A program made the translations under genes and the position numbers. The notes under the pieces were generated by a model, which worked only from the letters and a program-made list of their open reading frames with translations, had not been told where the DNA came from and ran no database searches. From positions 1 through 46,500 of the forward strand of contig CADACC010000005.1 in assembly GCA_902786275.1 (NCBI GenBank): a stretch of DNA of 46,500 nt. The letters run 5' to 3'. The stretch comes from an uncultured Erysipelotrichaceae bacterium. GTDB lineage: Bacteria; Bacillota_I; Bacilli_A; RF39; UBA660. This document shows positions 985-42,604 of this stretch, piece by piece. Each line of letters opens with the position of its first letter. Position 1 is the first letter of the stretch.

Positions 985-1433
985 TTTATCATCCCTTTCT
1001 TAAAGTCCATAATAGACTTTATTAAGCATACTATAAACGAATTATAATATGCTTTAAAAACCTATTATTTTTTCCTTTCCCTATTGCCCTCGTTCATTTG
1101 ATACTATTTTTTGTTGTGCCTTAATTACCTAGACGAACCATTACATTTCACTATCTAGGACAAGTCATTATCTTATAAGGTTGTAGTGTATGATGTTTTT
1201 GATAATGTTGCTCTTTTAGGTATGCCCACAAGTACTTGTATTGATAGGGTGTTTACTTGTGCCTTTATGCATATCTTTTCGGCAAGTATCCAGCAAATAA
1301 TTAAATTGTCAAAGAGTGATAACACTGTTAGGATTTATTTCATACCTATTGTAGTAAAGTGTTATTGTTATGCTTTTTTTACTTAGCAAGTTTATAAATT
1401 ATATTTGTTAGAAAAGTCTTTTTCGCTTTTCTT
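985..1433 (-). other. Long leftward leader with inverted repeats; no gene seen
   Basis: About 450 nt separate the nearest leftward promoter start from the first gene. I see no convincing coding frame. Seen directly are several inverted repeats: AAAGTC CATAATA GACTTT (about 1002-1020), AAGCATA...TATGCTT (about 1024-1054), CCTAGA...TCTAGG (about 1129-1159), and the perfect palindrome ACAAGTACTTGT at 1228-1239. The last contains the same AAGTACTT core found at the three promoters. The region could be a structured 5' leader, an operator field or both. Confidence 0.55.
1285..1312 (-). promoter_or_regulatory. Possible fourth leftward promoter
   Basis: On the minus strand TTGACA (complement of 1307-1312) is followed after 16 bp by GATACT (complement of 1285-1290), a 5/6 match to TATACT. 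It lies downstream of the triple promoter and points the same way. It lacks the long A-tract upstream element of the other three and is less certain. Confidence 0.35.
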
Positions 1434-1692: not shown

Positions 1693-2050
1693 TTTTTTCT
1701 TTTTTCCTTTCCTTATTATATAGGAATTAATTTTTTTGTGTTTTGTTTGTGTTTTGTTCGTGTTTTATCTAGTGATTACAAACATACGAATATTTTTTTG
1801 GCGAACTTTTTTTCGTTGGAATTTTTTTCTTATTTTTTTGGGGGGTGTGTTTTTTTGGCGAACTAAAAGCGAACAGGGGGAAGGTAAGAGTATGCGGGCG
1901 GGGGAGCGGGGAGATATTATTAAGAACGCACTTATTCCTCCTCTCCACACACAAATAGCCCCCCCTATATAAACCCAAACAAATGTTCACACCCCCACCC
2001 CCTATTTTTCTACCATATTACCTCCCCTAATCTATACATAACCCCAAAAA
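1693..2050. other. Gene-free divergent region with strong strand asymmetry and a 15-bp direct repeat
   Basis: No gene is supported here; the open frames read as low-complexity artefacts. The plus strand is T/G-rich up to about 1910, then abruptly C/A-rich from about 1935. The 15-mer TTTTTTTGGCGAACT occurs at 1793-1807 and 1850-1864, with a related AAGCGAAC at about 1867-1874. G-runs follow (six G near 1840, then four runs of 3-5 G between about 1874 and 1912). It sits between the leftward promoters and the rightward genes, a plausible place for an origin or a regulatory hub. Confidence 0.5.
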
Positions 2051-2548: not shown

Positions 2549-2577
2549 TTGACAAACTCTCCTGCCTATGATATAAT
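2549..2577 (+). promoter_or_regulatory. Consensus promoter for the structured RNA
   Basis: TTGACA (2549-2554), 17-bp spacer and TATAAT (2572-2577) form a perfect vegetative sigma-factor consensus. No gene with a ribosome binding site follows closely; a highly structured, terminated stretch follows instead. Confidence 0.88.
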
Positions 2578-2583
2578 ACTTTT

Positions 2584-2812
2584 ACATTTAACTTGTAGAG
2601 CGGAAACTTTCGAAGCCCGTCTCCCGAGATTGGTTGGAGGACGGATTTGGCAGATTTTAGGAAATAAATCCGAGGCTCACACTTAATTATTCTCCATCGG
2701 AGAGTAATTTAAGCGGGATGCTGAAGTCAAGATAGGACGCTTTCTTGAAGTGCTGCATAAAAAAACACATAAAACGCACGGGTTGCTCCGTAAACGACTA
2801 TGTGATTTTTTA
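2584..2812 (+). ncRNA. Unassigned structured RNA, about 230 nt
   Basis: Bounded by a consensus promoter upstream and an intrinsic terminator downstream, with no credible reading frame inside. Successive helices can be drawn: CCGTCTCC with GGAGGACGG (one bulge), GGATTT with AAATCC, a hairpin of about 14 bp around TTCTCC-ATC-GGAGAG (roughly 2683-2714), TCAAGA with TCTTGA, and the terminal CACATA/TATGTG stem. Dense GC in helices contrasts with the AT-rich genome. I do not recognise a known family: it is not tRNA or tmRNA, and I see no group I intron core. Candidates are a phage regulatory RNA, a decoy or a guide-like RNA partnered with the adjacent HNH-like protein. All of these are inference. 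Confidence 0.7.
2766..2812 (+). terminator. Intrinsic terminator of the structured RNA
   Basis: Outer stem CACATA (2766-2771) with TATGTG (2799-2804), inner stem ACGG/CCGT, followed by ATTTTTTAT. This defines the 3' end of the upstream RNA. Confidence 0.75.
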
Positions 2813-2816
2813 TACC

Positions 2817-2845
2817 TTGACAACAACACCTACATATGCTATACT
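2817..2845 (+). promoter_or_regulatory. Promoter upstream of the small membrane peptide and tRNAs
   Basis: TTGACA (2817-2822), 17-bp spacer, TATACT (2840-2845). It begins 5 nt after the U-tract of the preceding terminator. Predicted start is near 2852. Confidence 0.8.
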
Positions 2846-2851
2846 TATATA

Positions 2852-2941
2852 TGTGATGTGTTTCTTCATTCACATCATCAATAATCACAAATCAACTTTA
2901 TACCCCCTGTCAGGACAATGTTCATCTTGACAGGTCTTTTG
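2852..2941 (+). ncRNA. Short two-hairpin RNA or attenuated leader
   Basis: From the predicted start, the RNA folds into TGATGTG/CACATCA (10-nt loop) and then CCTGTCA (2906-2912) with TGACAGG (2928-2934) followed by TCTTTTGTTTT. The second hairpin resembles an intrinsic terminator. Either a 90-nt RNA is made, or the hairpin attenuates transcription into the 28-aa peptide and the four tRNAs downstream. Confidence 0.5.
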
Positions 2942-2945
2942 TTTT
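2906..2945 (+). terminator. Terminator-like hairpin in the leader of the tRNA operon
   Basis: A 7-bp perfect stem CCTGTCA/TGACAGG with a 15-nt loop, then TCTTTTGTTTT. It lies between a promoter and the downstream peptide and tRNA genes, so partial read-through must occur if this promoter expresses them. Confidence 0.55.
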
Positions 2946-2974
2946 GTGGTATATTCATCCTAGAGGTGCATAAT

Positions 2975-3061
2975 ATGTTCATATTAGGTTTATTTATTGG
3001 TTTTTTAATCGGAGCATTTATGATGGCATCTTTCGTTTGCTCTAAAAATGATAATCATTAA
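2975..3061 (+). CDS. 28-aa single-span membrane peptide (DUF3789-like)
   Basis: The frame begins MFILGLFIGFLIGAFMMASF and ends VCSKNDNH. It is one glycine-rich hydrophobic helix followed by a short polar tail. AGAGGTG precedes the ATG at 2975. Size and pattern (hydrophobic GLFIG...GAFMM) match the very small DUF3789-type membrane peptides found in many Gram-positive phages, whose function is unknown. It is immediately followed by four tRNA genes. Confidence 0.6.
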   Translation: MFILGLFIGFLIGAFMMASFVCSKNDNH

Positions 3062-3062
3062 T

Positions 3063-3136
3063 ATAGGTTTGGTGTAGTGATAACACATCGGTCTCCAAAA
3101 CCGAGGACAGTGGTTTGATTCCATTAACCTGTGCCA
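3063..3136 (+). tRNA. tRNA-Trp (CCA)
   Basis: Acceptor ATAGGTT (3063-3069) pairs with AACCTGT (3126-3132) with one G-U. The anticodon arm TCGGT-CTCCAAA-ACCGA gives anticodon CCA. The T arm is AGTGG-TTTGATT-CCATT. The 3' end carries GCCA in the DNA. It reads UGG; no UGA-reading tRNA is present. Confidence 0.93.
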
Positions 3137-3139
3137 TAT

Positions 3140-3214
3140 TGCAGATTGGTGAAGCGGTAACACAGATGACTTTGACTCATTTATTCAGTGGTTCGAATCC
3201 ATTATCTGCAACCA
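3140..3214 (+). tRNA. tRNA-Gln (TTG)
   Basis: Acceptor TGCAGAT pairs perfectly with ATCTGCA. The anticodon arm GATGA-CTTTGAC-TCATT gives anticodon TTG (reads CAA). ACCA is encoded at the 3' end. It lies 3 nt after tRNA-Trp. CAA is the dominant Gln codon of this phage. Confidence 0.93.
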
Positions 3215-3215
3215 T

Positions 3216-3291
3216 AGTAGAGTAGTTCAACGGTTAGAGCACTCGGCTTATATCCGAGGAGTTGTGGGTTCAAATCCTACCTCTACTACCA
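3216..3291 (+). tRNA. tRNA-Ile (TAT)
   Basis: Acceptor AGTAGAG pairs perfectly with CTCTACT. The anticodon arm CTCGG-CTTATAT-CCGAG gives anticodon TAT, reading AUA directly. ACCA is encoded. Only one base separates it from tRNA-Gln. AUA is common in the phage genes, so this is a likely codon-supply function. Confidence 0.92.
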
Positions 3292-3298
3292 TTATTAT

Positions 3299-3372
3299 GT
3301 ACCCCTAGCCAAAAGGTAAGGCAGAGGACTGCAACTCCTCGATTACAGGTTCGACTCCTGTGAGGTACTCCA
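3299..3372 (+). tRNA. tRNA-Cys (GCA)
   Basis: Acceptor GTACCCC pairs with GAGGTAC (one C-A mismatch). The anticodon arm GAGGA-CTGCAAC-TCCTC gives anticodon GCA. The T arm is ACAGG-TTCGACT-CCTGT. TCCA is encoded. It is last in the tRNA cluster. Confidence 0.9.
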
Positions 3373-3519: not shown

Positions 3520-3548
3520 TTGCACAAACACATATTCTATGATATAAT
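3520..3548 (+). promoter_or_regulatory. Promoter for the packaging and structural genes
   Basis: TTGCAC (3520-3525), 17-bp spacer, TATAAT (3543-3548), about 50 nt before the small terminase. The -35 is a 4/6 match to TTGACA. It is the first promoter of the long rightward block. Confidence 0.75.
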
Positions 3549-3597: not shown

Positions 3598-4041
3598 ATG
3601 TTGACAATTAAAGAAAGACAATTTATTTCTAACTATATACAAACTTTGAACGATAGAAAAGCACAAAAAGATGCTGGTTTTACACATTATGACCCAGATT
3701 TAATTCATAAACCAGACGTAGCACGTGCCATCTCAGAAAAACTAGAACAACATTTCGCTACATTGGACATTACAGATGAGTATATCTTAGCAAATATCAA
3801 AGAAGTTGCTGAATCAGCCTCTAGACCTGTACCTCGTTCAAAAATAGACAAAGATGGTAATCAGATTTACTATTATAGCGAGGATGGTAAACCTATATTT
3901 GATAGAGATTACGGCTCTCAACTAAAAGCCCTAGAACTTTTAGGACGTTATAGAGCACTATTTACTGATAAACAAGAAGTAGATGTAACAACCGACTTCG
4001 AGAAATACATTTCTGACGTGTCATCAGAGAGCGAGTGGTAA
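3598..4041 (+). CDS. terS: Terminase small subunit
   Basis: A 147-residue DNA-recognition subunit of the packaging motor. The N-terminal part (ERQFISNYIQTLNDRKAQKDAGF) matches the helix-turn-helix start of Terminase_2-type small subunits. The centre (residues about 58-75, TDEYILANIKEVAE) and the later LKALELLGRYRALF helix are typical of the family's oligomerisation core and tail. AGAGGAGG lies 8 nt before the ATG. It is the first gene after the late promoter. Its stop overlaps the open frame of a GIY-YIG endonuclease that has no conventional start, raising the possibility of coupled translation. Confidence 0.88.
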   Translation: MLTIKERQFISNYIQTLNDRKAQKDAGFTHYDPDLIHKPDVARAISEKLEQHFATLDITDEYILANIKEVAESASRPVPRSKIDKDGNQIYYYSEDGKPIFDRDYGSQLKALELLGRYRALFTDKQEVDVTTDFEKYISDVSSESEW

Positions 4042-4042
4042 T

Positions 4043-4630
4043 ATCAAAAAGTATATTGTTTACTGCCATATATTTCCTAATGGGAAAAGATATGTTGGTA
4101 TTACTTCACAAAAACCATCGGAAAGATGGAGAAATGGTCGAGGATATAAAGGTTCTACTGCTGTTTATAGAGCCATCAATAAATATGGATGGGAAAATAT
4201 AGAACATAGAATTTTATTTACGGATTTAAGTAAATCTGAAGCCGAAAAAACAGAAATAAGACTGATTAAAGAATGGAACACGTTATCGCCTAATGGTTAT
4301 AATTTATGTAAAGGTGGTAATTTAGTTACAGGACACAAAGTGTCAGAGAAAACCAAAAAACATTTGCGAGACCTCAATAAGGGTAAGAAATACTCTAAAG
4401 AAGTCAAAAAGAAACAAACCATCGCTCATACTGAGAAAATCGTTTGCTTGGAAACAGGTAAAATTTATGATGGATGTAGAGAAGCAGCACGATTAACAGG
4501 AGGAGATAAAGATGGTATTCGTCTATGTATAAAAGGTGTATATAAACAAACTCACGGAACACACTGGGTTAAACTAGACGATTTGATTAAAGGAGGTGAT
4601 TTGTCGTGTCTCAAGAAAAACAACGTATAA
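4043..4630 (+). CDS. GIY-YIG homing endonuclease between the terminase genes (start uncertain)
   Basis: The frame gives KKYIVYCHIFPNGKRYVGIT, the GIY and YIG strands, then SERW with the conserved Arg, an Arg/Tyr/Trp-rich helix, AEKTEI with the metal-binding Glu and YNLCKGGN with the closing Asn. A basic linker (about residues 95-125) and a NUMOD-like DNA-binding module (CLETGKIYDGCREAARLTGG) follow. The frame is open from 3989 but has no ATG or GTG before the catalytic core. The first such codon is GTG at 4340, which would remove the nuclease domain. Possible starts are CTG 4013, ATC 4043 or ATT 4055, or a +1 shift from terS near its stop. The 3' end overlaps the terL start by 25 nt. It is a likely mobile, free-standing gene. 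Confidence 0.8.
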   Translation: MKKYIVYCHIFPNGKRYVGITSQKPSERWRNGRGYKGSTAVYRAINKYGWENIEHRILFTDLSKSEAEKTEIRLIKEWNTLSPNGYNLCKGGNLVTGHKVSEKTKKHLRDLNKGKKYSKEVKKKQTIAHTEKIVCLETGKIYDGCREAARLTGGDKDGIRLCIKGVYKQTHGTHWVKLDDLIKGGDLSCLKKNNV

Positions 4631-6305
4631 ACATTAAAAAATATATCGAGAATTTCGTTAAAATTCGTAATAAAAATTCAGATATAGTACCTTTGGTCTT
4701 GAATAAACCTCAACAAAAACTATATGACGTAATACGCACCCAGAAAGAACAAGGTAAACCAGTGCGTATTATTATTTTGAAGGCACGACAACGGTGCAAA
4801 TGGGGTTCTCAACAGTTACAGGAGGACTAATTCTGTCTCAGACAGCCACACATAAAAATAAACAGGCTGCTATCGTTGCTCACCAAGAGGACTCAACAAC
4901 TAACTTATTTAATATGTATAAGTTGATGTACGAGAACTTACCTGATGCCCTAAAACCATCACAAAAAGCATCAAATGCTAAGGAGTTAGTATTTAACAAT
5001 AAATCTAACACGGGTTTGAACTCCAGAATACGTTGTATGACGGCTGGAACAGGTGGAGTAGGACGTTCGTTCACTATTAACTACTTACACATTTCAGAGT
5101 TAGCCTTCTGGAAGGGCGATGTAAAAGAAACAATGCTTGGTTTGATGCAGGCAGTACCCAATACACCTGATAGTATGGTCATAATCGAGTCTACTGCCAA
5201 CGGTTATGAAGAATATCAAGAAAGATGGGAGGCTGCTGTTAAAGGTGAGTCAGATTTCTACCCACTATTCGTAGGATGGAATGAACTATCAGAGTATCAG
5301 ATGCCGTACAGTGGTTTCGAGTTGACAGAAGAAGAAAAAGAACTTCAGAAAACTTACCACCTATCACTAGACCAGTTAGAATGGCGTAGATGGTGTATCA
5401 AGAATAACTGTGGTGGAGATATATCACTATTTAAACAGGAGTATCCAATATGTCCAGAAGAAGCGTTCTTGACAACAGGTAACTGTGTGTTCGACCAAGA
5501 GAAGATAATGGAGAGACTCAAAAATATTCCTGAACCACTATATACAGGTTACTTCTCATACGACTATGATGATACACGTGCTGGTAAAGATAAACTTCAG
5601 AATCCAGTATTCAACAAAACTGATAGAGGATATATAAGGATATATAAAGAACCTAAAGAAGGTCGTACATATACTTTATCAGGAGATACAGCAGGAGATA
5701 CACAAGGAGACTATTTTGCAGCCCACGTTATTGATAATACAACTTGTGAGGAGGTAGCAGTGTACCACAATATGACAGACGAAACATTGTTCGCTAGACA
5801 GATGATATGTTTAGGGTATATGTATAACACAGCATTGATAGCGATAGAGGCTAACTTCTCGACATATCCGAACAAAGAGATAGCGAGGTTAGAGTATCCT
5901 AATATATATGTTCGTGATAGAGAAGATGACTATCGTGGTGGAATTTACTCAGCATACGGGTTCAAGACAACTCAGATTACAAGACCACTATTAATATCTT
6001 CATTAGTTGATATAATAAGAGACCACTGTGAGTGTATAAACGATAGGTTGACTTTACACGAGTGTTTGACGTTCATAACAAATGAACACGGACGTAAAGA
6101 AGCGATGCAGGGTAAGCACGATGACTTAGTTATGAGTTTGGGTATAGGTTACTATGTAAGAAATTCACATTATTTCCAAGTAGCGTACACACAACCTGAA
6201 CTAAAGAAATTATTTAAGTGGAGTGAAGATTTAAAACAAGATTATTATAAAGCAGATAAAGAAACTAGAAGAAGAATGGAGGAGAAATATGGACGAGTTA
6301 ATTAG
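4606..6305 (+). CDS. terL: Terminase large subunit, frame broken by 8 nt inside the P-loop
   Basis: ATPase and nuclease of the DNA packaging motor. Frame A (4606-4830) carries the N-terminus and the first half of the P-loop (IIILKARQ). Frame B (readable from about 4794 to 6305) carries the rest (MGFSTVTGG), the Walker B region (YLHISELAFW), the coupling motif (IIESTANGYEE), and the RNase H-like nuclease with Asp in SGDTAGD, Glu in AIEANFS and Asp in KHDDLVM. Removing 8 nt (for example CAACGGTG, 4789-4796) restores the exact family motif KARQMGFST. A GTG at 4794 with GAAGG upstream could start frame B alone, but would lack the P-loop lysine. The start at 4606 is GTG after AAAGGAGG. Alternatives are an assembly error, a defective genome, or a recoding/bypass event with matching CAA codons on both sides. 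Confidence 0.9.
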
Positions 6306-41822: not shown

Positions 41823-42021
41823 TTCTCCTCCTTTGTTTTAATATTTCCCAATATATTCGTTCATCCATAGTTATATCTCCCTTTTCATACATTCTATCAA
41901 TTGTCGGTTGAGGTATGGATGCGAATATATTAACAAATCTTTCGTATTTTTTTCTTTGTTTCTCTCTATCTTCAAGTAATTTGTCTATTCTATCAACTAG
42001 TTCCTGATATGTATTAAACAT
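41809..42021 (-). CDS. 70-aa helical protein downstream of the PemK-like gene
   Basis: Begins MFNTYQELVDRIDKLLEDRE, a helical charged protein with IPQPTIDRMYEKGDITMDERIYWEILKQRRR. Its start overlaps the stop of the PemK-like gene. It is a candidate cofactor or antitoxin by position only; there is no antitoxin motif. Confidence 0.6.
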   Translation of the reverse strand: MFNTYQELVDRIDKLLEDREKQRKKYERFVNIFASIPQPTIDRMYEKGDITMDERIYWEILKQRRRNDKN

Positions 42022-42386
42022 TATATCTCACTTAGCATTTGTCTATTAATCTCTGATAAAAAGTTATGTGTAGTGATATATACTTTCTTAAATGTGTTAG
42101 GTGATAGTTTACCAATTACTCTACTGATTTGATGTTTATGTAATGTGTGAATTTTACTACAACTTGCTAGACAAGGTGCATTTAAAAATGGGTTTTCTTC
42201 TATATTAACATTAACTGTATAATTACCTACCATATCAAATTGTGTTGTAAGTTTTATTGCTGTGAAGTTTATTGTACCTCTATTTGATGGGTCAAATTGT
42301 TCGTCTTGTAATACAACGAATAGTGCTCTTTTTGCTTTCCCTTCAAAATTTATATAATCACATATAACTACTGTTCCTGCTTTCAT
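42021..42386 (-). CDS. MazF/PemK-like protein
   Basis: 121 residues. MKAGTVVICDYINFEGKAKRALFVVLQDE matches the MazF/PemK opening (G-x-V-x-x-x-x-F-x-G-x-x-x-R-x-x-x-V-x). Later INFTAIKLTTQ is the threonine-bearing strand, and SKIHTLHKHQISRVIGKLS matches the closing strand and helix of the toxin fold. These proteins are usually sequence-specific mRNA endoribonucleases. ATG 42386 follows AAAGGAGA; upstream extension is a different gene. No antitoxin was identified in the flanking genes. It may help in host mRNA shut-off or be an inactive binder. Confidence 0.65.
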   Translation of the reverse strand: MKAGTVVICDYINFEGKAKRALFVVLQDEQFDPSNRGTINFTAIKLTTQFDMVGNYTVNVNIEENPFLNAPCLASCSKIHTLHKHQISRVIGKLSPNTFKKVYITTHNFLSEINRQMLSEI

Positions 42387-42604
42387 TAATAAGGTCTCCT
42401 TTTCTTTTCTACTATTTTTAAACATAATAAATAAAACAATTCTAATGGTATTAACAAAATATCTAAAACTAAAGTTAATGGTGTTAAACATATTACTAAT
42501 ATTAATAACATTGCCATTTCTTCATCGGAATAATCACTTGTTCTACCAAAATTAAAGGGATATAATTTATAGTCATAATCTCTCCACATATTTAAAGTAA
42601 GCAT
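42386..42604 (-). CDS. 72-aa membrane protein
   Basis: A soluble Tyr-rich N-terminus (WRDYDYKLYPFNFGRTSDYSDEE) and one to two hydrophobic segments (MLLILVICLTPLTLVLDILLIPLELFYLLCL), ending in a basic KKRRPY. Coupled to the PemK-like gene (1-nt overlap). May anchor a complex to the membrane; function unknown. Confidence 0.65.
   Translation of the reverse strand: MLTLNMWRDYDYKLYPFNFGRTSDYSDEEMAMLLILVICLTPLTLVLDILLIPLELFYLLCLKIVEKKRRPY

Follow-up and report, generated by a model that had tools for sequence, protein, structure and literature searches.

The RNA gene and its surroundings

The window analyzed here is an entire contig of 46,500 b from a bacterial genome of ~1.1 Mb in 68 contigs. Since both of its ends carry the same 99-bp direct repeat, the window is probably the complete assembly of a circular phage of 46,401 bp. 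The rightward arm contains the TerS, TerL, portal, capsid and tail genes, the genes of the leftward arm look like replication functions, and the RNA gene discussed here is found where the two arms diverge.

The RNA gene is located in a slot bounded by the terminase genes on one side and by a conserved G-rich element on the other, and the cargo of this slot varies between the phage and its relatives. In the window, the slot holds an orphan ORF (2093-2476), the RNA, a second promoter-RNA-terminator unit and four tRNAs. The second unit (2817-2945, + strand) consists of a promoter matching 11/12 motif positions (2817-2845) and a short structured RNA (fold z -3.56) with a terminator-like hairpin, CUGUCA/UGACAG. 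It is followed by a promoter at 2927-2955 and, from motif and tRNA calls, genes for tRNA-Trp, -Gln, -Ile(UAU) and -Cys (2927-3372, + strand). The tRNA-Ile (3216-3291), with its UAU anticodon, would read AUA directly, which is unusual in bacteria. TerS (3598-4041) has its own promoter (3521-3548, + strand), as it also does in the relatives that were read.

The relatives L002-L009 were collected by TerL searches, and a TerL profile extended the set to 80 phage loci. Their slots hold a short RNA and the homologous RNA (L004), a short RNA and tRNA-Gln (L002), or a short RNA and a calcineurin-like phosphoesterase identified by Pfam (L003 and L005), and the slot of L006 is empty. The short RNAs are promoter-driven and terminator-ended (L002 6826-6900, L004 248-300, L005 4725-4800, window 2817-2945), and their inner sequences are unrelated among the relatives. 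The slot thus appears to be a place of rapid ncRNA turnover. The differing cargo and the separate TerS promoter imply that the RNA is independent of its neighbors and not needed for packaging. Judged from these arrangements, the RNA is a stand-alone accessory cargo, neither a leader nor essential for packaging. A TerS leader was rejected both on account of the TerS promoter and because the RNA is missing from most close relatives.

The original prediction described a perfect TTGACA-17-TATAAT promoter followed by about 230 nt of stable structure with high local GC, no reading frame and an intrinsic terminator, and each of these features is recovered in our analysis. The promoter (2549-2577, + strand) matches the sigma-70/A motif at 12/12 positions, has a TG-extended -10, and is one of two perfect TTGACA-17-TATAAT sites in the 46.5-kb window. 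It is from this promoter alone that a high abundance of the RNA may be inferred. The start of the predicted non-coding RNA (2584-2815, + strand) was placed 6-7 nt past the -10, and the expected transcript runs from about 2584 to about 2815. The GC content of the RNA region is 0.42, vs 0.305 for the window. The RNA contains short ORFs only, and in none of them are a ribosome-binding site and a start codon shared by the two phages that carry the RNA; a small peptide product was rejected as the short frames lack a ribosome-binding site or a conserved frame.

The terminator is a hairpin at 2757-2813 with an A/U-tract base followed by U6 (-15 kcal/mol), and its z of -4.2 is the same in the window and in L004. 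It is absent from the + strand list of a simple terminator scanner, probably because of the internal loops of the hairpin. The complete RNA folds with an MFE of -66.6 kcal/mol, compared with -52.0 +/- 4.5 for dinucleotide shuffles (z -3.27), and none of 200 shuffles folded as well; the L004 copy has a fold z of -3.91. However, a scan of the whole window showed that many windows reach a fold z of -3 to -4. As such values are not rare in the phage, the fold score alone is weak evidence, and conservation is the stronger argument for the RNA.

Conservation and covariation

A single independent homologue was found, on the phage contig L004, whose TerL is 91% identical. A covariance model (CM) built from the window sequence alone detects it at L004 385-562 with 127 bits (E 1e-30), and the two RNAs are 75% identical over 194 positions. 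In L004, the RNA is preceded by a promoter, TTGACA-17-TACACT, and followed by TerS, and it ends in a terminator of its own; in both phages, the terminase genes come shortly after the RNA. The non-coding sequence immediately on either side of the RNA cannot be aligned between the window and L004, whereas the ~75% conservation of the RNA equals that of the start of the TerS gene. Such a pattern points to a selected element. The proposal of a dedicated ncRNA gene is supported by the lack of an Rfam match, by this conserved homologue, which is equipped with a promoter and a terminator, and by the compensatory changes.

All parts of the RNA described below are on the + strand. The 5' extension (2603-2617) carries GAAACTTTCGAAGCC and is missing in L004. 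The same sequence is found in the short promoter-driven RNA of L002 (6842-6856), and this 15-nt match (E 0.59) is suggestive only. Folding predicts a 5' hairpin, CCGUCUCC/GGAGGACGG (2617-2644), which is specific to the window and competes with the P2 helix. P2, CRGAUUU/AAAUCYG (2642-2672; 2642-2648 with 2666-2672), has one compensatory A-U/G-C change. The P3 hairpin (2676-2720) has diverged in sequence and kept its pairing, with six double changes including its base. In the P4 hairpin, UCAAGA-YAGGACGCUU-UCUUGA (2727-2748), the loop is invariant except for Y, and the AGGACGC motif is thus fully kept. The terminator hairpin P5 (2757-2813) has an outer helix that covaries with two double changes around an interior of 26 nt, ACGCACGGGUUGCUCCGUAAACGACU (2774-2799), that is invariant between the window and L004. 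A shared fold in P2, P3 and P5 is likely. P1, GCAG/CUGC (2650-2756; 2650-2653 with 2753-2756), is a hypothetical pseudoknot helix predicted by folding; its 5' strand sits inside the P2 loop and the helix has 6 bp in L004. P1 is invariant and so shows no covariation.

In an alignment fitted to the structure, 9/43 pairs are doubly changed and one singly, and 2/85 cells are unpaired. Shuffles gave 4.6 +/- 1.4 double changes and slid structures 0-2, all counts resting on two sequences. The covariation check that accompanied the original prediction is thus answered in part: compensatory changes are present, but two sequences are too few for significance at the level of R-scape. Since the fitted alignment leans towards the structure, a structure-blind control was added. 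This alignment has three double changes. Its RNAalifold energy, -32.3 kcal/mol, ranks at about the best 2% when compared with 444 control windows taken from coding regions of the two phages, and the result is only suggestive. The structural alignment reached -42.2, lower than all 444 controls, which were not themselves structure-aligned.

The complex fold ending in a terminator could also be read as a cis-acting attenuator or riboswitch that governs readthrough into the downstream genes. An alternative helix of 4 bp between the P4 loop and the P5 3' arm, with one double change, would fit such a switch. However, the downstream genes differ between the phages, with a short RNA and tRNAs in the window and TerS in L004, and every downstream unit has its own promoter, which makes a cis-acting role improbable.

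The original prediction left the RNA unassigned, and it matches no known family. A search of the window against Rfam 15 returned only tRNAs at the gathering score, with no meaningful match to the RNA at E up to 10, and permissive thresholds gave nothing meaningful for the L004 RNA either. Several exact patterns searched in 2.9 million viral contigs found L004 and otherwise chance matches, and one exact pattern searched in GTDB genome contigs found no further copy, although exact patterns could miss more divergent copies. The CM had a real match only in L004 among 81 related phage loci, and only chance matches among 385 genomes of the order. Searches by blastn of phages, plasmids and the host family likewise gave L004 and chance matches. 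The best chance match of all these searches, in G051 (E 0.0065), falls within a coding gene and was rejected. A TerL profile scan of genome contigs gave no relative. On these comparisons, the RNA appears genuine and very rare, a new orphan family with two members so far.

Proposed function and known systems

With a promoter and a terminator of its own, a conserved structure and no ORF, and with covariation from two sequences, the RNA would be grouped with stand-alone structured phage RNAs, a kind already accepted from ROOL and GOLLD. These are structured phage or prophage RNAs of unknown function, often found beside tRNA clusters, and cow rumen is the source of one ROOL member (PMC12286853). 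A closer kinship, with an abundant and possibly oligomeric RNA near tRNA islands, would fit the stand-alone structure and the adjoining tRNA cluster in the window. ROOL and GOLLD are, however, ~600-800+ nt long with elaborate folds, whereas the ~230-nt RNA is about one third of that length and has no sequence or CM match to them. Additionally, the L004 homologue is not beside tRNAs, none being found on its contig, and we consider this kinship rather implausible.

We propose that the phage carries here an accessory gene whose product, a compact structured ncRNA, works in trans as a decoy or scaffold, a reading to which we assign a probability of roughly one half. Host RNA polymerase with the main sigma factor would transcribe the RNA without a phage factor, which would allow it to accumulate early. 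The core of the folded transcript would contain a pseudoknot and present two hairpins, one with the AGGACGC loop and one with the 26-nt motif in the terminator hairpin. Loops that stay constant while their stems vary are well suited to being recognized by a protein or ribonucleoprotein, and the invariant motifs may bind such a partner from host or phage. As a trans decoy or scaffold, the RNA would favor infection in some hosts and be dispensable in others. A more specific version, in which the P4 loop and terminator-interior motifs of this new two-member family capture a host defense or translation component, is tentative and considerably less probable.

The stand-alone promoter-terminator layout is also typical of antisense regulatory sRNAs, whose conserved loops would pair with host or phage mRNAs. 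The conserved single-stranded loops and several GGA/SD-like motifs point in this direction. On the other hand, pairing of the loops to 44 phage translation starts was no better than for shuffles, and the conserved parts lie in structured internal loops, including that of the terminator, and not in a free seed. We find an antisense function rather unlikely. The GGA motifs, UUAGGA in the P2 loop and AGGA in the P4 loop, also resemble the GGA-bearing hairpin loops of CsrB/RsmZ sponges, but the RNA has only three conserved GGA motifs. A CsrA sponge was rejected since no CsrA was detectable in the host genome, where search controls were positive.

A location in an accessory cargo slot would also suit an RNA that inhibits host defense, for example as an RNA anti-CRISPR or by mimicking a type III antitoxin. 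The RNA anti-CRISPRs (Racrs) are similarly small phage RNAs without cas genes, and a stand-alone phage ncRNA with a strong promoter is the layout of RacrIF1 (PMC10651486). RNA mimicry by phage phiTE is a further precedent (PMC3475682). However, while Racrs mimic the CRISPR repeat (PMC10651486), no repeat-like unit was seen in the RNA, and Cas1, the one cas gene searched for, was not found in the 90%-complete host genome. We give defense inhibition of this type a low probability, and no support was found for any CRISPR-related reading.

The suggestion of a guide-like RNA gained no support, as neither a nuclease nor any other partner gene is conserved beside both copies, and the terminase genes are the only shared neighbors. 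A type III antitoxin acting with the ORF at 2093-2476 was rejected as well; this ORF matches nothing in Pfam or PHROG and has neither viral relatives nor a counterpart near the L004 copy. Like the pRNA of phi29-type phages, the RNA is small, structured and beside packaging genes, but the window phage has TerS and TerL, and close relatives with the same terminase lack the RNA.

Catalogues of phage RNAs that lack a protein partner are poor, and a function is known for only a few of these RNAs. With its compact, self-contained form and a natural second version, the proposed trans-acting RNA would be easy to express, probe and pull down. The variable slot, with its tRNAs, short RNAs and enzymes, is a place where more host-interaction RNAs of phages of small-genome bacteria might be sought.

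Other elements of the phage

A PemK/MazF-like toxin gene (42021-42491, Pfam PF02452) is found in the leftward gene arm. In the rightward arm, TerL is apparently split into two ORFs (4606-4830 and 4794-6305) at 4780-4800, where ~8 nt are inserted relative to the relatives, directly behind KARQ, and the reading frame changes close to the Walker A region. Just upstream of the split lies a homing endonuclease-like gene (~4040-4630; NUMOD1-like, PHROG homing endonuclease). Recoding, a decayed site or an error of assembly could each account for the split.

The G-rich, GC-skewed non-coding element that borders the slot, GCGAACAGGGGGAAGGTAAGAGTAYGC...GGGGAGATATTATTAA, is conserved near TerS in all close relatives (window 1857-1920; L002 6716-6785; L005 4610-4680; L006 40-95; L004 135-200). 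Contig L006 ends right at this element, which is a candidate packaging or replication site.

A second non-coding element, on the minus strand (window 1080-1345; L002 5880-6140; L005 4035-4310; also in L003), is more widely conserved than the RNA and has no Rfam match near any gathering score. Two promoters on the minus strand, at 1559 and 1468, lie upstream of the element, which may be an early-gene leader RNA or another ncRNA. Within its larger fold is a covarying hairpin, in which 5/8 pairs are doubly changed in L005.
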